This document shows, piece by piece, positions 1,424-10,387 of a stretch of DNA of 46,695 nucleotides. Both the position numbers and the translations under genes were made by a program. This stretch comes from an uncultured Bacilli bacterium (lineage in GTDB: Bacteria; Bacillota_I; Bacilli_A; RFN20; CAG-826), in contig CALVPP010000004.1 of NCBI GenBank assembly GCA_944351395.1, forward strand, positions 1-46,695. Direction: 5' to 3'. How positions within the stretch are numbered: position 1 is the first letter of the stretch; every line of letters starts with the position of its first letter. Under the pieces are notes generated by a model that saw nothing but the letters and a program-made list of their open reading frames with translations, was not told where the DNA came from and made no database searches.

Positions 1424-2527
1424 TTATAAACTTTCAATTGGATAAGGCACTTTTTTTAGACGAGTTGAAGGAATATTATGTCTCCCTTCTTTCGCTTGTG
1501 GTTTACCATCTAACATGACTAAATCACCTGTAAAGCCGCAAGTCATATTATTGACGAAGCTAGTTCCAACTCCGTAAGTATCAACTGGTACTCCTTCTTT
1601 TGTCCATTCATCAATCTTTTCTTTATTGAAAGAACTAGAGACAATAATTTTTACGTGTTGATATCCTTCTTTATCTAGTTCGGCACGTAGAGCATAAATT
1701 AGTTGTTTACATACACCATGTGGGTCAAATCCACTCGTATCTTTATCATCGAAATAATGATCGACGAGAGATTTTGATGTATCAACACGTACAGCATTTA
1801 ATTTATCACCTAAATGTCTTGCTAAAAGCAAAGAATCACGAACGACGTTGTTATGATAATCTATGAGAGCAGTCAACTTTTCATTAGGATAAGCTTTCAA
1901 GTAGGCTTCGCTTGCTTTGATGATATCTCCATCACAAATTTCGATGAGAGCGTGTGGCATGGTACCTACACCTTTTCCTCCCCACCAATACCCTTGTGCA
2001 TCAGTGGATACTCTATCTATGCCTGCGACATAAGTTGCATAACCATCACCTATCTGAGTAAGATAGTCATCTTGACGATCCGCCATCGAGAAAACAGGAA
2101 CTCCTCTTGCCGCCAAAAGAACTTCGTGAACATTCGTAGCGACGCTCGTGCGTCGAGCGAGGATGCCATCGATGAGAGATTCTAAGAAACCAAAATCTTC
2201 ATAACGACCTGTTATTTTTAAAACTGGCTCATTAGCTTCAATCATATCGCCATCTTCAAGAGCATAAATTTCTAAATCTTTTGGACGATGTGCAAAAGTA
2301 TGAATGAGTGCAATGGCTTCGTCAAGGCCACAGACCATCGCACTTTCCCTTCTTTGAAAAAATTGCATCGTCACAACATGATTCGGCAATAATTTTTTCA
2401 CGATTTCATGAGATTTTAAAAAGTAATTAGCGCTATAGAAGCCATCGGCAATTCTTTTATCAAATTTGAACGTTTTATTCGTAAGTCGCGCTATTTTGCC
2501 GTGTTTTTTAAGCTCAATCTCTTCCAT
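1424..2527 (-). CDS. pncB: Nicotinate phosphoribosyltransferase
   Basis: Makes nicotinate mononucleotide from nicotinate and PRPP in the NAD salvage route. At 367 residues it is the short form common in Bacilli and Mollicutes rather than the roughly 480-residue form. Supporting segments include the N-terminal FDKRIADGFYSANYFLK, the QFFQRRESAMVCGLDEA stretch, and the C-terminal YGVGTSFVNN and DLVMLDGKPQAKEGRHN regions typical of the family. The ATG start overlaps the end of the M42 peptidase gene by 14 nt and has AAGGAAA as ribosome-binding site inside that gene, so the two are probably translationally coupled. Family assignment is firm; preference for nicotinate over nicotinamide rests on the family and was not tested. 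Confidence 0.92.
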   Translation of the reverse strand: MEEIELKKHGKIARLTNKTFKFDKRIADGFYSANYFLKSHEIVKKLLPNHVVTMQFFQRRESAMVCGLDEAIALIHTFAHRPKDLEIYALEDGDMIEANEPVLKITGRYEDFGFLESLIDGILARRTSVATNVHEVLLAARGVPVFSMADRQDDYLTQIGDGYATYVAGIDRVSTDAQGYWWGGKGVGTMPHALIEICDGDIIKASEAYLKAYPNEKLTALIDYHNNVVRDSLLLARHLGDKLNAVRVDTSKSLVDHYFDDKDTSGFDPHGVCKQLIYALRAELDKEGYQHVKIIVSSSFNKEKIDEWTKEGVPVDTYGVGTSFVNNMTCGFTGDLVMLDGKPQAKEGRHNIPSTRLKKVPYPIESL

Positions 2528-3602
2528 AAACCGTTTCCTTTCTTAACTCTTCAATTTTCTTTGCGTCTATTTTTTTCATAATAGCAACGAGGCTTAAACG
2601 AGCGCTTTCATAATCTCTTCCATCGATGATACTTGATGGAGAATGAATGTTTCTCGCGACAACACAATGTGATAAAACTAATATTCCATCGTGTGACATT
2701 TGAACTTCACTCGCATCTGTTCTACCAGGCGAAGTAAAGAATTGCGAAGGTAATTTAAGTTCGTCTAGCGTGTCTTGTTGCAATCTTAGCAAAGGACGAT
2801 TTGCGACAGTCCCTCGATCTAAATATCTAAGAAGGACACCATCACCTAATCGACCATTATCATTTTTACTACCGCTTTGATCATTAGCAGGCGAACAATC
2901 TAAGACGATGCATATATCAGGTCTTACCATATGAGATAAAGTAATAGCACCTCTACATCCTACCTCTTCTTGAACAGTTGCACCAACGTAAAGGTCGAAA
3001 GGTAATTTTTCATCCTTTAATGCATCTAATAAATCTAAACCTAATGCGCAACCATAACGATTATCAAACGCCTTAGCCATGAAACGATTACTACTAAGTT
3101 TAATGAATCGCCCTTCTTCCACAATCATATCATTAGGACATACTCCTTTTTTAATCGCTTCTTTATCACTTGTAAAACCAAAATCCAAATAAAGATCACT
3201 AGATTTTAAAGTGTCTTTAGTCCCAAGATGAGGCGCAAGAGCGCTTATCGTTCCATAAAATGTCTTGTTATTACGTGTCTTCAAAATAAGACGTGAGCTA
3301 GGCAATCTAGATAAAGTTAAACCACCAATTGTATTTACTAAAATAAAGCCATTTTTTAAAATTTGTTTCACGACGAAACCAACTTCATCCATATGGCTGA
3401 TAACTAGCACTTTCGGCGCGTTCTTAAGATCGCTTTTCTTCAAAGCAACAATCGAACCTAATTCATCATATTTAACTTCTAATCCTAACTTAGTATATGC
3501 ATTTTTTAGATAATTTCGCACTTCATCTTCTTTTCCACTTATCGCACATAATTGAGTTAAGTCTTTCAAATATTTAATGCTTGTTTTCAATATCTTCAGC
3601 AT
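2514..3602 (-). CDS. M42 family metallo-aminopeptidase
   Basis: Cytoplasmic dinuclear-metal peptidase of the glutamyl-aminopeptidase/endoglucanase M family, removing N-terminal residues from peptides. It has 362 residues, normal for the family. Visible metal ligands and catalytic residues: H70 in ISHMDEVGF, D180 in KAFDNRYG, the glutamate pair E212-E213 in VQEEVGCRGA, D235 in VLDCSPAND and H320 in RNIHSPSS. The start overlaps the trmB end by 29 nt, an unusually long overlap. It is supported by a perfect GGAGG 7 nt upstream inside trmB. Together with the PepV domain two genes upstream it suggests peptide use. True substrate preference cannot be read from the sequence. Confidence 0.9.
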   Translation of the reverse strand: MLKILKTSIKYLKDLTQLCAISGKEDEVRNYLKNAYTKLGLEVKYDELGSIVALKKSDLKNAPKVLVISHMDEVGFVVKQILKNGFILVNTIGGLTLSRLPSSRLILKTRNNKTFYGTISALAPHLGTKDTLKSSDLYLDFGFTSDKEAIKKGVCPNDMIVEEGRFIKLSSNRFMAKAFDNRYGCALGLDLLDALKDEKLPFDLYVGATVQEEVGCRGAITLSHMVRPDICIVLDCSPANDQSGSKNDNGRLGDGVLLRYLDRGTVANRPLLRLQQDTLDELKLPSQFFTSPGRTDASEVQMSHDGILVLSHCVVARNIHSPSSIIDGRDYESARLSLVAIMKKIDAKKIEELRKETVYGRD

Positions 3603-4212
3603 ACATTACCTCCACTTTATATATAGTTTTTCCATCCGAGCGATATTTCATCTCATAAGCACTCATTGGTTCGGAAGAAATTTTTAAATTTCTATCCACG
3701 CTTAATATCTTAAGATGAAGAGAGGAAAAAGTCACTAAACTATCTTCTAAGAAATCTAAATTATCAGTTTTTAATATGACTTTTCCGTCTTTCTTTAAAA
3801 TTGTTCTATATAAGGACATGAAAATAGGAGCAGTGAGACGGCGTTTATTGTGTCTCTTTTTTGGCCATGGGTCAGGAAAATTTAAATAAATGACATCAAA
3901 TTTTAGTCCTAATTCCTCACATATTATCAATTCTTTTGCGTCTTTTATGAGAAACGAGACATTCTCTAATTCATCATCAATGCATTTTTTCATAGCTACG
4001 GCTCCGCAATTAGGATTTACTTCTACGCCAGTGAAAAATATTTCTTTATTAGACTTCGCAAAAGCGTGAAGAAAGTCGCCTTTTCCCATACCAATTTCTA
4101 AAATGTGGTGAGTAAAATGATGATATTTTGTAATAGATGTTTCGCTAAACATATCATATTGTGCATTTTCCAAAATGTAAGGTTTTGCCCAAGGTTTAAA
4201 TTTTTGTCTCAT
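3574..4212 (-). CDS. trmB: tRNA (guanine-46-N7)-methyltransferase
   Basis: SAM-dependent enzyme that methylates N7 of G46 in the tRNA variable loop. It has 212 residues. The SAM-binding loop is LEIGMGKGDF at about residues 38-47, and the family signature FPDPWPKKRHNKRR covers about 112-125, including the catalytic aspartate. The start codon overlaps the stop of the upstream transporter-peptidase fusion as ATGA (4209-4212), the classic coupling arrangement. No sign of degeneration. Confidence 0.95.
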   Translation of the reverse strand: MRQKFKPWAKPYILENAQYDMFSETSITKYHHFTHHILEIGMGKGDFLHAFAKSNKEIFFTGVEVNPNCGAVAMKKCIDDELENVSFLIKDAKELIICEELGLKFDVIYLNFPDPWPKKRHNKRRLTAPIFMSLYRTILKKDGKVILKTDNLDFLEDSLVTFSSLHLKILSVDRNLKISSEPMSAYEMKYRSDGKTIYKVEVMYAEDIENKH

Positions 4213-6158
4213 TTTTCCATCAAATCCTTTAAAGCGTGATAGTAAATAGCCATCGCTTTTTTCATTTCATCCAAATGATATACTTCATCTGCATCGTGCA
4301 TATGATAATCTTTTGAAGGCTCAGCTGGACCAAAAGCTACGCAGTTTTTCACTTCTTTAGCGTAAGTTCCTCCGCCTATTGCTAATGGTTTAGTTAATTT
4401 ATCTCCACTTACTTTTTGATAAGCATTTAATAATGTTTGTACAAGTTCACCTTCAGGATTTATATACAATGGTTTGGCATAACTATCTTCATGAAAAATC
4501 CAGCCATCTAAACTATTTAATCTTTTAATAACTTCATCATACGTGATAGTGTTCGGATGACGATAATCAATACTTAAAGTTAATGTTTTACCATCATAAT
4601 GAGCTTTACCAATATTTAAAGATGTAGAACCTAACTTATCATCTTTAACATAAATACCCAATTTTTCTCCTTCTTGATCTATTAAATTTTCATAGACTCG
4701 CATTAATGCATCATCACTAGTGAACATAGCGATGTATTTAATTGCTTTTAAAAAAGCATTATCTCCTAACTTAGGAGTAGAACCATGAGCGGCTTTACCA
4801 AATATTGTCACTACCTTATTATCGAAAACAAAGTTTACATTATTATCATCTAGATAATTGATAAATTTTTCTTCATCTTCTTTAAGAGTAATATGAGCCT
4901 TTTCAATGCAAACATTAAAGGCGACGCCAGCATCTATAGAACTAACTAAGGGTAAAGACATTTCTTTGCTCAAAGTAAAATGTAAAATACCTTTTTCACT
5001 ATAAATTAAAGGAAAGTCAGCATCTGGTGTAAAGGCATATTTTGGACTCTCTTTTTTTAACGTCTCAAAATAATAATTTAAACAAGAAGACCCTCTTTCT
5101 TCATCGCCACCAATGACGAGGCGTAACTCATAATTTTTAATTAAACCTTCATCTAACAACGCTTTTAAAGTGTAGAGCGTCATGACTAATGGTCCTTTAT
5201 CATCGATGACTCCTCTTCCATAAATATCATTACCTTCGATATGCAATTGATATGGTTCATGATGCCACTTACCTTCTGCACTGACGACATCAGTATGAGC
5301 GAAAATACCAATAATTGGTCCTGTACCACCGACGATGATTTCTAAAACTCTATTATCGTAAATCGTCGCACTTTTAAAGCCGAGATTTGAAGCTTCTTTT
5401 TTTAGATATGACAACGCTTCGCTTACTTTTTTCCCATAAGGATGTTCTTTTGAAACACTTTTCTCATCATAAACGCTAGGTATGGCAATCAATTCCCCTA
5501 AGGTTTTCAACATTTCTTTCATCGATTTATCGATGAAATCCGGTATTAATTTCATTTCTTTTTTCTCCTTCTTTTCATATATTTTTAATTTACTCGCTGG
5601 TTTTAATAAAGGTATGCCAATAGTTGGAGTAAGAATAGCCGCTAAAAGTAATTCAACGACGCAGTTAATCGTAAATATCGCACTAATAATAGTAAAAAAG
5701 GTCGTGCCTTCATCGTCCATGAACGCATAGAGCAAAGGAATGACCATCGCTGTATGAAGCAAAGTTAATAGTGCACTTTCGATAGCGGTCATCACCCCTA
5801 AAGTCGCTTTATTTTTCATTTTTGATTTCGTCATCGTAAAAATAAATCCTGCTAATAAGCCAAAGATAAAGCGAGGCAAAACAGATATGAGAGGATTGAT
5901 AAAATATGCATCCGCTACACCAGCTGGCATCGTTAATGCCTTAAATAATGAACATAAACCAAAAGCGATGCCGAATATTGCTCCTTCCACCCATCCAAAT
6001 AAGAAAGCACCTAACAGGACGATGAGGTGAATCGTCGTGATGGAAATAGGACCGATGGTGATAAAACCAAGATTAGGTACAAATGTGAAAAGAGCAATCA
6101 AAGCGATAAATATCGCATCGACGCTCATCCGCCTAATTTTTCTATCTGTTCTGTTCAT
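4209..6158 (-). CDS. Fusion of ECF-transporter S component and PepV-type dipeptidase
   Basis: One open frame of 649 residues joins two proteins that are normally separate. Residues 1 to about 190 form a hydrophobic six-helix substrate-binding S component of an energy-coupling-factor vitamin importer (pfam12822-like), with segments such as TTIHLIVLLGAFLFGW and FINPLISVLPRFIFG. Residues about 202-649 are an M20 dipeptidase of the PepV/Sapep type. Its metal-site motifs are HTDVV, GVIDDKGP, GGDEERGSS, TPDADFP and GGTYAKEV, with the C-terminal MHDADEVYHLDEM. Met202 (ATG at 5553-5555) is preceded by AAGGAG 9 nt upstream, so a free dipeptidase could also be made. The gene overlaps coaX by 17 nt and trmB by 4 nt. 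The coaX link makes pantothenate a reasonable, unproven guess for the transported compound. An even number of membrane helices would place the peptidase in the cytoplasm. Confidence 0.85.
   Translation of the reverse strand: MNRTDRKIRRMSVDAIFIALIALFTFVPNLGFITIGPISITTIHLIVLLGAFLFGWVEGAIFGIAFGLCSLFKALTMPAGVADAYFINPLISVLPRFIFGLLAGFIFTMTKSKMKNKATLGVMTAIESALLTLLHTAMVIPLLYAFMDDEGTTFFTIISAIFTINCVVELLLAAILTPTIGIPLLKPASKLKIYEKKEKKEMKLIPDFIDKSMKEMLKTLGELIAIPSVYDEKSVSKEHPYGKKVSEALSYLKKEASNLGFKSATIYDNRVLEIIVGGTGPIIGIFAHTDVVSAEGKWHHEPYQLHIEGNDIYGRGVIDDKGPLVMTLYTLKALLDEGLIKNYELRLVIGGDEERGSSCLNYYFETLKKESPKYAFTPDADFPLIYSEKGILHFTLSKEMSLPLVSSIDAGVAFNVCIEKAHITLKEDEEKFINYLDDNNVNFVFDNKVVTIFGKAAHGSTPKLGDNAFLKAIKYIAMFTSDDALMRVYENLIDQEGEKLGIYVKDDKLGSTSLNIGKAHYDGKTLTLSIDYRHPNTITYDEVIKRLNSLDGWIFHEDSYAKPLYINPEGELVQTLLNAYQKVSGDKLTKPLAIGGGTYAKEVKNCVAFGPAEPSKDYHMHDADEVYHLDEMKKAMAIYYHALKDLMEK
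5553..5570 (-). promoter_or_regulatory. Internal ribosome-binding site and start codon in the fusion gene
   Basis: Inside the fusion reading frame, on the minus strand, AAGGAG is followed by 9 nt and ATG (5553-5555, Met202), exactly at the junction between the membrane part and the dipeptidase part. This is what a stand-alone pepV start would look like. It suggests either a relic of two coupled genes or dual translation. Confidence 0.55.
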
Positions 6159-6906
6159 AAATATTATAAAGTCCTTTTAAAACGAGGTGATGGTCGAACA
6201 AATATTCGTTTCCGAGCGTTCCTTCTAATATATTAGAATATCCACCAGTAATAATTTTATGAGTTTTATATCCTAATTCTTTTTCAACCATATTTACCAA
6301 ACCTTCAATAAGGGCAATCGTCCCATTCACTGCTCCTGACTTTAAAGATTCAATCGTATTTTTTCCGATGACGTGTTCTGGTTTATCAAAAGAAATATCC
6401 ATCAGTAGAGCGGCTTTCTCAGCTAGTGCATCAAAACTTACCTGGACACCAGGATAGATGATGCATCCGACGAGATCGCTCATCTTATCTATGACGATAA
6501 ACTTCGTCGCGGTTCCTAAATCTATGATAATAGAAGGAAATAAATTTAATTTTTTCGCTCCAACCGCACTACACAATAAATCTTGTCCTAATTCTTGCGG
6601 ATGATCTATTTTTAATCTAATACCACTCTTTAAGTGTCTGGACAATAGAATTGGTGTCTTATGGAAGGTTTTTTCTAACGCTCGCGCAATTCTTTTGCTA
6701 ATCGATGGGACGACACTAGCGATTACTATATCTTCGATTTCTTCATCCTTTATACCAATTCCATTTTTAAGTGATTGAAACCCTATCGCATATTCATCAC
6801 CAGTTTTTAAAACATTTGTATTGAAAAGAAACGTTTTAATAATGTGACCTTCTTCAATAATTCCTAAATCGATCGCGGTATTACCGATATCTACGACGAT
6901 GACCAT
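6142..6906 (-). CDS. coaX: Type III pantothenate kinase
   Basis: Phosphorylates pantothenate in the first step of coenzyme A synthesis. It has 254 residues and the ASKHA fold. The N-terminal phosphate-binding motif is DIGNT at 6-10, the HPQELGQD segment at 102-109 carries the catalytic aspartate D109, and DLGTATKF lies at 129-136. The usual arginine after that aspartate is leucine here, a small deviation. The ATG has a strong GGAGG 7 nt upstream. First gene of the operon ending at tyrS. The next gene begins inside its last codons, tying CoA synthesis to the ECF-S protein. Confidence 0.93.
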   Translation of the reverse strand: MVIVVDIGNTAIDLGIIEEGHIIKTFLFNTNVLKTGDEYAIGFQSLKNGIGIKDEEIEDIVIASVVPSISKRIARALEKTFHKTPILLSRHLKSGIRLKIDHPQELGQDLLCSAVGAKKLNLFPSIIIDLGTATKFIVIDKMSDLVGCIIYPGVQVSFDALAEKAALLMDISFDKPEHVIGKNTIESLKSGAVNGTIALIEGLVNMVEKELGYKTHKIITGGYSNILEGTLGNEYLFDHHLVLKGLYNIYEQNR

Positions 6907-6958
6907 AATTTTACCTCCGCTACAATCTCAGTACGTGTGAGTATCGTGCCTGTCATTT

Positions 6959-6986
6959 ATTATAATGAAATACAATTGTTATTCAA
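6959..6986 (-). promoter_or_regulatory. Promoter of the coaX operon
   Basis: On the minus strand TTGAAT (6981-6986) and TATAAT (6959-6964) are separated by 16 bp, giving a leader of about 45 nt with GGAGG before coaX. Its -35 box abuts the -35 box of the divergent lipoprotein gene. Confidence 0.6.
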
Positions 6987-6990
6987 TTGT
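6972..6990. repeat. Inverted repeat between divergent promoters
   Basis: Perfect 7-bp inverted repeat, ACAATTG, 5-nt spacer TTATT, CAATTGT. It covers the -35 boxes of both the coaX operon and the divergent lipoprotein gene. The position fits a repressor operator, but no regulator is encoded nearby. Confidence 0.4.
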
Positions 6991-7004
6991 CAAAAAGATA
7001 TAAT
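6976..7004 (+). promoter_or_regulatory. Promoter of lipoprotein gene, predicted leaderless
   Basis: TTGTTA (6976-6981), 17-bp spacer, TATAAT (6999-7004): a near-consensus housekeeping promoter. Only 7 nt separate the -10 box from the ATG at 7012, so transcription should begin at or one base before the start codon. No Shine-Dalgarno sequence is present. Confidence 0.65.
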
Positions 7005-7011
7005 CATAACC

Positions 7012-7995
7012 ATGAAAAAGAAGTTAATTTTCCTATTACTAGCCGCAATGACTATGACGAGTTGTGCTGAACCAGCTTATCTAGAAGAAAAAGCTGAACA
7101 ATTGCAAAGTGAATTGTCTTCCCTTGCACAAGATTACTTGTCTGATTTATCACGCTTAGAATATGCTATCGACAATTTAAATTTAGCCAGTTTGACATAT
7201 GATCAAGACGATTTAAGCAAAGATGCAATAGAAATTGAAATTAAAGATGACGATGAAAATCGTTATGCAATGCATCATAAAGAAATTTATGATGATAAAA
7301 CTGTCACTATGACTCAAGGAGAAATGTATGTGAGAGCAAGTTTGCTAACTAGTTTTTTATCGCCGCTTATCAATTTGACTTATTATAGTGATGAACAAAA
7401 CCAAATGTACGTACACTTTATCGATACATCCATTCTCGAAATAGCATCCTTACTTTTAGAAACTTATCTAGGTGCTAGTGTCACTTACCCAGAAAATGGA
7501 AAAGTTCATATCGATTTATCGAGATTAACAAATGATAATAATTTGCCTTCCTTTGGTGTAAGAACAATTTTTAACATCATCGACCTCATGCCTACACCTT
7601 ATAGTTATGAAATCGCAGAGAAAACAATTTTACAATTTTCATTATCGAAGAGATTTCTCGCTATCATGAGTGCGGAAATTGAACTCGAAGCAGAAGGAAA
7701 AACCTATAAAGATGAATCTCAAACTGCATTTAATAATCGTGTAGATACAATTTATGAGAATTTAAAAGATACGAACTTAAATTATTTTTACCTCGATTTT
7801 TATTATGATAAAAATGGCATTGAAAAATTTTATGTAAGTATCGACTTAAGCCAAAACATCACAAATGATAATGGCAACTATGAAAGCGATATGTCTTTAG
7901 ACTTCGATACGATCATTCTTAATAAAAACGAGGATGTCATCATGGACATCCCCACCGATTTAAATGAGTATGGTGAGATTAACGTCAATTTATGA
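7012..7995 (+). CDS. Predicted lipoprotein of unknown function
   Basis: A 327-residue protein with a lipoprotein signal: MKKK, a hydrophobic stretch, then TMTSC with the lipidated cysteine at about residue 18. It should be anchored on the outer face of the membrane. A longer in-frame start exists at 6937 but would bury the signal peptide and overlap the promoter, so 7012 is chosen. The rest is acidic and mixed alpha/beta by appearance, with an early coiled-coil-like part ([19 protein letters not shown]). No recognised domain or catalytic motif. Its 3' end overlaps the leuS 3' end by 11 nt on the opposite strand. Its stop is TGA. I do not recognise the family. Confidence 0.85.
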
Positions 7996-10387
7996 CGATG
8001 CTCACGATACGATGTTTGATGACGATAATCTTTTTAATCTCATGACCTTCGATATATTTTTGAACGCCAGGAAGCGCTAAAGCAGCTTCTTCAATCGCTT
8101 TTTCATCTGCTTCGACATCAATCGTAATCGTGCCACGTAATTTACCATTAATTTGCACCCCAATCGTCACATCGTTTTTCTTCAAACATTTATCTTCATA
8201 CGTCGGCCAATTTGCTGTACTTAAAGAGCCATCATAACCTAACATTTCATACATCTCTTCCATGAGATGAGGTGAAACTGGTGAAAGCATGATGATGAGA
8301 CCAACTAGATATGGTTTATAAATAGTAGTAGCCTTATACATTTCGTTCGTCAAAACCATGAGTTGTGCTAGACCAGTGTTATATTGAAGATTTAAAAAAT
8401 CTTCTGTTACTTTTTTAACAGTATAATGGTAAACGTAATCTAAGCTGTGGTCATTAGTGTCACTAATCTTTTTAGCGTTTTCAGGTAATTCGATGAGCCT
8501 ATACACTCTATCTAAATATTTTCTCGCTGCTTCTACTCCATTATCATTCCAAGGTAAGGATGCTTCTAATGGACCCATGAACATTTCAAAGAAACGCAAC
8601 GCATCCGCTCCAAACTCTTCGATCAAATCATCAGGATTTACAACGTTACCGCGTGATTTACTCATCTTTTCGTAGTTGCTACCTAAAATCATTCCTTGGT
8701 GGAATAACTTCTTAAATGGCTCTTCGCATTTGACGATACCATGATCAAATAACACTTTATGCCAGAATCTCGCATAAAGAAGATGAAGCACAGCGTGCTC
8801 TGCTCCGCCGACATAAAGATCGACAGGGAGCCAGTGTTCAATAAGTTTAGGATCAGCGATACATTTATCGTTATGTGGGTCTAAATAACGGATGTAATAC
8901 CAGCAAGACCCAGCCCATTGTGGCATCGTATTCGTTTCTCTTCTAGCGTGCTTCCCATCAATCGTCACATCGAGCCAATCTTTCGCTAGGGCAAGCGGAC
9001 TTTCTCCAGTACCAGATGGTTTATATTCATCAAGGTGCGGAAGCGTGAGAGGTAAATCAGATTCATTTAATGGAACGATTGTATTATCATCCAAATAAAC
9101 GACAGGAATTGGTTCACCCCAATAACGTTGCCTAGAAAAGAGCCAATCACGTAATTTGTACGTTATTTTTTCTTCACCTTTTCCAATCTTTTTTAAATAT
9201 TCATTTAAAACTTTTTTAGATTCATCAATATTTAAACCGTTGATAAGAGGTGAGTTAATATGTTTAGCGTCACCTGTAAACGCTTCTTTGCTTATGTCAC
9301 CTTCTAACACTTGTCTCATTCCAATGCCATGTGCCTTAGCGAATGCATAATCTCTTTCATCGTGCGCTGGCACGGCCATGACCGCACCTTCACCATAATT
9401 CGCTAAGACGTAATCAGCAATGTAAATAGGAACTTCTTCACCATTTATCGGATTTATCGCATAAGCGCCGATGAAGACGCCTGTCTTCTCTTTATTTAAA
9501 TCCGTTCTCTCTAAGTCTGATTTAGAGGCAATCTTTTTTAGATAAGCTTCTACTTCATCTTTTTTATCTTCGGAAGTAATTTTGGCGACGAGAGGATGTT
9601 CTGGTGCCAAACAACAATACATGCAACCATAAAGAGTGTCCACTCTCGTCGTGAAGACATTAAAACTCACATCTTTACCTTTGACATCGAATACGACACG
9701 TGTACCGAAAGAACGTCCAATCCAATTCTTTTGCATTTCAAGAGTTGAATGCGGCCAATCGAGTGTCGATAATCCTTCTTCTAATTTATCAGCATAAGCT
9801 GTAATTTTTAACATCCATTGTCTCATCGGTTTTCTGATGACAGGGAATCCTCCCACTTCTGACTTACCATCTATTACTTCTTCGTTTGCGAGCACTGTCC
9901 CTAAAGCAGGGCAAAAATTGACAGGTTGATAACTAACATAAGCTAAACCGTCTTCATAAAGTTTAAGGAAAATCCATTGCGTCCATTTGATATAATCTTC
10001 GTCAATCGTCGCAATTTCTTTCGACCAATCATAAGAAAAACCAGCACGGCGCAATTGCTTTTTAAATCTTTCGATATTTGTGCGTGTAAATTGTTCTGGA
10101 TGATGGTTCGTCTTTATGGCGTATTGTTCAGCTGGAAGTCCAAAAGCGTCCCATCCAATCGGATGAAGCACGTTATAACCTCTCATCCTCTGCATTCTTG
10201 CCATGATATCAGTCGCCGTATAATTTTCAAAATGTCCGACGTGTAATCCTTCACCGGAAGGATAAGGAAACATGTCTAAAATATAATATTTTGGTTTAGA
10301 AAAATCGTAGACATCACATTTAAATGTCGCATGTTCATCCCAATATTTTTGCCATTTAGTTTCTATTTTTTTATGATCATAACCCAT
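7985..10387 (-). CDS. leuS: Leucyl-tRNA synthetase
   Basis: Charges tRNA-Leu, with an editing domain that clears mischarged products. It has 800 residues, a normal length. The HIGH motif is HVGH at 49-52 and the KMSKS motif is intact (EKMSKSRGN). The inserted CP1 editing domain shows a threonine-rich TTRVDTLYG segment and [10 protein letters not shown] with its conserved aspartate. The C-terminal segment [10 protein letters not shown] is typical. It is the last gene of the glg operon, 18 nt after the glgA stop. The ribosome-binding site is weak (GAAGAG). No T-box lies in front of it. Confidence 0.97.

Follow-up and report, generated by a model that had tools for sequence, protein, structure and literature searches.

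The window, by which we mean the whole 46,695-nucleotide stretch of DNA analysed here, comes from an uncultured Bacilli bacterium and carries a set of minus-strand genes in which an importer subunit and a peptidase are encoded as one protein (Table 1). The frame upstream of coaX is one we take, from its translation, to be leuS (leucyl-tRNA synthetase). Between coaX and leuS, on the plus strand at 6937-7995, lies an ORF of 352 aa whose N-terminus resembles that of a lipoprotein.

Table 1. Features of the fusion locus in the window
Feature	Position	Strand	Basis
Fusion ORF, 649 aa: PanT-like ECF S component, then Sapep/PepV-family M20 dipeptidase	4209..6158	-	open frame, Pfam, NCBIfam
ECF_trnsprt domain, residues 9-180; A15/A19 (AXXXA), F66, R96, H135	5619..6134	-	Pfam, alignments
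Linker, residues about 193-206; pLDDT <50 at 193-202	5541..5582	-	AlphaFold
AAGGAG, Shine-Dalgarno-like, within the linker	5565..5570	-	sequence
Internal ATG (Met202), at which a free dipeptidase of 448 aa might begin	5553..5555	-	sequence
Dipeptidase part; conserved H288, D290, D320, E353, E354, D379, H458, H621	4209..5555	-	Pfam, NCBIfam, alignment
coaX, type III pantothenate kinase, overlaps fusion start; GADR reads GQDL	6142..6906	-	Pfam, NCBIfam
leuS (presumed), upstream of coaX in the conserved order	7985..10387	-	conserved order
trmB, tRNA (guanine46-N7)-methyltransferase, overlaps fusion end	3574..4212	-	Pfam, NCBIfam
M42 aminopeptidase	2514..3602	-	Pfam
Nicotinate phosphoribosyltransferase	1424..2527	-	NCBIfam

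The original prediction for this DNA was a single-frame fusion of an ECF S component to a complete M20 dipeptidase, with AAGGAG and ATG at the joint, and each of these elements is borne out. The ORF (6158..4209) is a single frame with no internal stop codons, including at residues 190-202, where a hidden stop had been considered. The ECF_trnsprt domain (PF12822) scores 63.1 bits against a cut-off of 30.7. Peptidase_M20 lies above the Pfam cut-off at residues 286-644, with all eight conserved positions present. An AlphaFold model of the fusion (mean pLDDT 86.1, pTM 0.61) has a helical membrane domain, a disordered segment at residues 193-202, which is the sole run with pLDDT below 50, and a folded dipeptidase. 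The best 50 matches of a fold search with the full model were all M20-type hydrolases, so the S domain was placed by sequence. A PanT-like S component and a dipeptidase in one protein is a true fusion.

The window genome is a draft of 56 contigs, and a stop codon could in principle be concealed by an assembly or sequencing error. The distribution of the fusion makes this so improbable as to be practically negligible. With the whole fusion protein as query, 214 of 224 genomes of the window's family gave matches, and a profile of the S part matched 141 of the same 224. If any open frame longer than 600 aa that crosses the S part without a stop is counted as fused, 20 genomes from six genera have an unbroken fusion: g1 (3), g5 (4), g10 (2), g16 (4), g23 (4) and g28 (3). 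In one of these (G124, locus L029) the contig ends inside the dipeptidase. The linker stays in frame across fused genomes that are 63-65% identical. The recurrence of the fusion in related genomes, which the original prediction had proposed to look for, is thus established, and relatives do not always keep two separate genes: among the 115 family genomes whose PanT-like match is strong, 20 have the genes fused.

In the genomes searched, the fusion is confined to this family of uncultured, small-genome bacteria. Of 279 genomes from the order, 263 gave a match; the full-length unbroken matches among them are the same 20, all from the window's family, and none was found in the 55 order genomes outside it. 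Samples of the class (395 genomes) and of the phylum (392 genomes) each contained nine fusions among the matches listed, at the head of which full-length matches are expected, and all were already-known family members. One genome of the window's genus (G042, 96% complete) has a match to neither fusion part. In the searched literature, which comprised openly licensed papers, no fusion of an S component with a dipeptidase or any other enzyme was described. The domains are known ones; the joint between them is unusual.

We infer that the C-terminus of the S domain is cytosolic, from its even number of helices and positively charged N-terminus, which would place the dipeptidase inside the cell. 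Two loci of genus g19 (L149, 2572-3363; L166, 2577-3368) encode a PanT-like protein with an additional hydrophobic C-terminal stretch, which in these two loci would turn the C-terminus outward; both are unfused. Open frames of 690-750 aa had hinted at a C-terminal dipeptidase fusion in this genus, and we rejected it when the ORFs proved separate; in g19, 24 loci have a pepV downstream, and all of them are unfused. The PanT-like protein of loci L015 and L017 (genera g31 and g3) carries an additional N-terminal hydrophobic stretch and is likewise unfused.

Profile searches narrow the identity of the S component. Queried against solved structures, a profile of 22 S parts matched 6zg3 (E 2.4e-36) and 4rfs (2.1e-33), followed by ThiT (0.0017). 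The first two are the ECF-PanT complexes of L. delbrueckii and L. brevis (PMC7755397), in which pantothenate is bound by R101(95), N139(131) and W69(64). These residues align to R96, H135 and F66 of the window protein. The Arg is kept in 113/113 rows, the Asn has become His in 113/113, and the Trp is replaced by Phe in 95 rows and by Met in 18. R96 and H135 are invariant in all 20 fused rows, and the pocket changes are alike in fused and unfused rows. Since two of the three pantothenate residues differ, we file the S component only as PanT-like. Its gene follows coaX. Its cargo may be pantetheine-like rather than pantothenate.

The window genome encodes one CbiQ/EcfT protein, its gene preceded by two ABC ATPase ORFs and followed by truA (the ATPases and truA assigned by eye), and has four S-component matches, two of them above the cut-off. 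By these gene assignments, a shared (group II) EcfAA'T module lies elsewhere in the window genome. Docking of S components on EcfT requires an AXXXA motif (PMC11109136). In the window protein the motif of helix 1 is A15...A19, and among fused rows the first Ala is kept in 16/20 and the second in 19/20. The S domain would thus be expected to dock on EcfT through AXXXA.

The dipeptidase part belongs to the Sapep family by profile (TIGR01887, 340 bits against a cut-off of 207.95) and falls short of the PepV equivalogs (NF005591, 346 against 435; TIGR01886, 238.7 against 632). In the AlphaFold model it matches 3ki9 and 1lfw. Its eight conserved metal/catalytic positions take their roles from PepV; across 108 rows, each position is unchanged wherever the row extends to it, and the active-site residues of the dipeptidase part are intact. 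Characterised relatives are generalists. PepV of L. lactis has a broad dipeptide range and provides the cell wall with alanine (PMC7117943), and PepV of S. hominis cleaves many dipeptides as well as an S-conjugated Cys-Gly (PMC11742315).

The Shine-Dalgarno sequence at the joint raises the question of whether one protein is made or two. In counts that come from related genomes and so are no independent trials, a Shine-Dalgarno sequence with a start was found at 6/487 joint codons against 11/11,814 elsewhere in the fused ORFs (short anti-SD, dG <= -7) and at 8/487 against 31/11,814 with a longer anti-SD (dG <= -8; Fisher p 0.00012). By genus, the longer anti-SD detects the start in g1 3/3, g16 4/4, g10 1/2, g5 0/4, g23 0/4 and g28 0/3, and the short one in g1 1/3, g5 1/4, g16 4/4, g10 0/2, g23 0/4 and g28 0/3. 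Met202 is equally placed in the 3/3 fused genomes of the window's genus. When codons were shuffled synonymously, the observed Shine-Dalgarno strength was matched in 28 of 5000 shuffles for the window, 244 for L003 and 873 for L002. In the window the sequence therefore exceeds what a Lys/Glu-rich linker would yield as a by-product; in L002 this is not clearly so. In the window's genus, the internal Shine-Dalgarno and ATG probably also yield some free dipeptidase.

The earlier suggestion of two products is thus plausible for the window, and it does not extend to the fusions in general, as g23 (0/4) and g28 (0/3) have no internal start. A stronger version, in which most translation across the joint gives two proteins and little of the fusion is made, is quite unlikely. 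It could draw on the start codon shared by three genomes and on the fusion being the sole dipeptidase match in the window genome; set against it are the same two genera and the fact that the upstream frame lacks a stop codon, so that an internal start alone could not end its translation. Of the 20 fused genomes, 17 have no dipeptidase match besides the fusion; the window genome is one of these, and the exceptions are G121, G123 and G124. In g28, where the fusion is the only dipeptidase match and an internal start is missing, all of the enzyme would be membrane-bound unless it is processed.

The genes around the fusion are arranged in a conserved order. We read gene order in 115 genomes whose S part matched at E 4e-18 or better (loci L001-L030, eight loci from the S-part profile search and 77 further stretches), leaving out the weaker G195. 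The order is leuS-coaX-panT-pepV-trmB, with leuS and trmB flanking in most loci that reach that far. The gene immediately upstream of the S gene is coaX in 113/115, the other two loci being cut at the contig start, and the two genes overlap in L001-L003. A separate pepV lies within 350 nt of the S gene stop in 87 of the 115 loci. In L156 and L184 the distance from the S gene to pepV is 0.6-1.0 kb, in L139 there is none within 1.5 kb, and in four loci the contig edge comes before pepV can be read. Fused or adjoining, pepV accompanies the S gene in 108/111 readable loci, including one broken pepV; that gene, in L183, is split over three frames and is either damaged or misassembled.

The same genes also occur without the importer. 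Beyond the strong matches, 40 further stretches were collected and 38 were used, L245 and L247 being set aside. Among these 38, several genera as well as family f3 have pepV-trmB but no S gene. The longer order leuS-coaX-pepV-trmB, again without an S gene, is found in g11, g12, g21, g22, g25 and g30. In L228-L232, L262, L266 and L267 the gene that separates coaX from pepV is an S gene with a weak match. Two loci of family f3 (L252 and L253) have coaX, a PanT-like gene and pepV adjoining, with the PanT-like gene on the opposite strand. The pairing of pepV with trmB is thus independent of the importer, and this is our main argument against a shared substrate.

The unfused loci suggest how the fusion arose. 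In these, the dipeptidase usually starts -17 to +80 nt relative to the S gene stop, and with gaps this small, one lost stop or a small indel could join panT and pepV. The history was traced in a dipeptidase tree of 59 chosen rows, comprising all 20 fused and 39 unfused sequences, which needs three changes between the fused and unfused states. The fused g28 groups with the unfused g14 (99/96), and the unfused g13 falls among fused genera. A single clade of all fused rows is rejected (AU p 0.00015), and a clade of fused rows minus g28 is weakly rejected (p 0.044). A coaX+trmB tree of the 52 rows left after seven were dropped because trmB lay outside the locus, unfused g13 among the seven, groups g5, g10, g16 and g23 and by itself forces no more than one change. 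The dipeptidase tree implies at least two fusions, or one fusion with later splits. The gap between adjacent panT and pepV would then have been lost at least twice in the family, or lost and later regained by splitting.

The neighbourhood of the importer with a pantothenate kinase gene directs attention to coenzyme A synthesis. PanC above cut-off was found in 0 of 220 family genomes, with five weak partial matches. The CoaB domain (PF04127) was not found in the window genome. In the family it occurs in 1 of 220 genomes, as a 54-aa fragment in a genome that is 78% complete, and it was absent from all 119 good family genomes, with controls positive 14/14. CoaD is present in the window genome and above cut-off in 32/39 relatives. 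A regex search for CoaE and CoaC motifs found none; it covered 400 kb of the window genome, made up of the window plus four loci with S or T components (about 2/5 of the genome), and says nothing on the presence of these enzymes. With PanC and CoaB absent and CoaD present, the pattern suggests, without proving, that the family takes up a precursor past the CoaB step. Pantetheine uptake is called poorly understood in a review (PMC12570885).

The kinase itself is altered. We take the Arg of its GADR motif to bind the pantothenate carboxylate. The CoaX assignment is secure by profile (TIGR00671, 178 against a cut-off of 58.2), and a scan of contigs with an alignment gave 80 loci, a source of extra CoaX rows, where a contig scan with the single protein had given no matches. 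The catalytic Asp of GADR is kept in 111/112 rows, and the Arg is replaced by Leu, Met, Ile or Phe in 112/112. The Arg is absent also in loci without an S gene, and all four PanK-III chains that we aligned have it. Among control CoaX sequences from plasmid records it is present in 11/15 and missing in 4/15, which weakens its loss as a clean marker of pantetheine use. The four Arg-less controls (L292, L295, L298 and L306) are from plasmid records of Subdoligranulum (two), Anaerotruncus and Riemerella. The group of Arg-less CoaX may therefore be wider than the window's family.

The original prediction suggested that the importer takes up a peptide, or a conjugate of one, and that this is cut as it enters. 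The CoA pathway makes a conjugate-type cargo less far-fetched than it would otherwise be, CoaB and PanC both being missing. The S domain would import a peptide-bound, pantetheine-level precursor, which the dipeptidase would trim before it passes to the kinase and CoaD. We regard this as a minority possibility, improbable yet deserving of some weight. It accords with the finding of no PanC above cut-off in 220 genomes and no CoaB domain in 119 good ones while CoaD is kept, with the changed S pocket and the CoaX lacking its GADR Arg in 112/112, and with the appearance of the fusion in separate branches. B. subtilis takes up cysteinopantetheine (PMC11487621) and S. hominis PepV acts on an S-conjugated Cys-Gly (PMC11742315).

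Several observations pull the other way. Cysteinopantetheine is not known to contain a peptide bond that a dipeptidase could cut. The pocket changes are identical in unfused rows, the Arg is missing in control CoaX too, and the coaX-pepV and pepV-trmB neighbourhoods occur without panT. Only CoaA, not CoaX, supports pantetheine use in B. subtilis (PMC11487621), and PanK-III is described likewise as giving no support (PMC12570885). A still more specific scheme, a CoaB-free route to CoA by ECF import of pantetheine or a conjugate, a fused hydrolase, a pantetheine-switched CoaX and then CoaD, is speculative, and we consider it doubtful. Cleavage of the cargo on entry is possible but unsupported: pepV-trmB occurs without the importer, PepV is a general enzyme and most relatives keep two genes.

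The breadth of PepV and the occurrence of pepV-trmB without an importer lead us to prefer an ordinary dipeptidase, and we lean, if only slightly, towards the following as the best explanation. A single protein would combine the S subunit of a group II ECF importer for a CoA precursor with a cytosolic C-terminal general dipeptidase, the two connected by a short flexible linker. The S domain would deliver its cargo to CoaX, and the dipeptidase would hydrolyse ordinary dipeptides close to the membrane. The two parts would share location and dose, and presumably not substrate. The operon order is conserved so broadly, however, that importer and dipeptidase may yet be functionally linked.

It is also conceivable that the S domain no longer takes part in transport and only holds the dipeptidase at the membrane, which we think unlikely. 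In histidine-kinase receptors of the same fold, toppling is proposed to be restrained by the soluble C-terminal part (PMC11109136), and S. aureus PepV, mostly cytosolic, has a slight membrane fraction and binds SecA (PMC12004944); a tethered dipeptidase would fit both. An anchor would not explain why AXXXA is largely kept, why R96 and H135 are invariant in 20/20, or why coaX adjoins, and a family without PanC needs an importer. Toppling within the membrane is the motion proposed for S components, and this fusion offers a natural test of it with a large cargo. If the CoaB-free scheme is true, the fused protein would also show that an S component can topple while bearing a 450-residue enzyme. 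With 20 natural fusions, most having the full docking motif, toppling with a large cargo is directly testable. A kinase and CoaD without detectable PanC or CoaB also point to an undescribed entry of CoA precursors.

The fusion can be set beside three known systems. Sapep/PepV dipeptidases (3KI9, 1LFW) share its fold, the TIGR01887 match and the catalytic positions. The window enzyme differs in being membrane-attached and below the PepV equivalog cut-offs, whereas S. aureus PepV is mainly cytosolic (PMC12004944). PanT (6ZG3, 4RFS) shares profile kinship, AXXXA, the pantothenate-site Arg and a neighbouring pantothenate kinase gene; the window protein has N->H and W->F in the pocket and a 450-aa C-terminal enzyme. 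Finally, the 5TMR sensor histidine kinases likewise place a membrane domain of S-component fold before a cytosolic domain (PMC11109136). These kinases lack AXXXA and end in a signalling C-terminus, whereas the window fusion has AXXXA and carries a metabolic enzyme.
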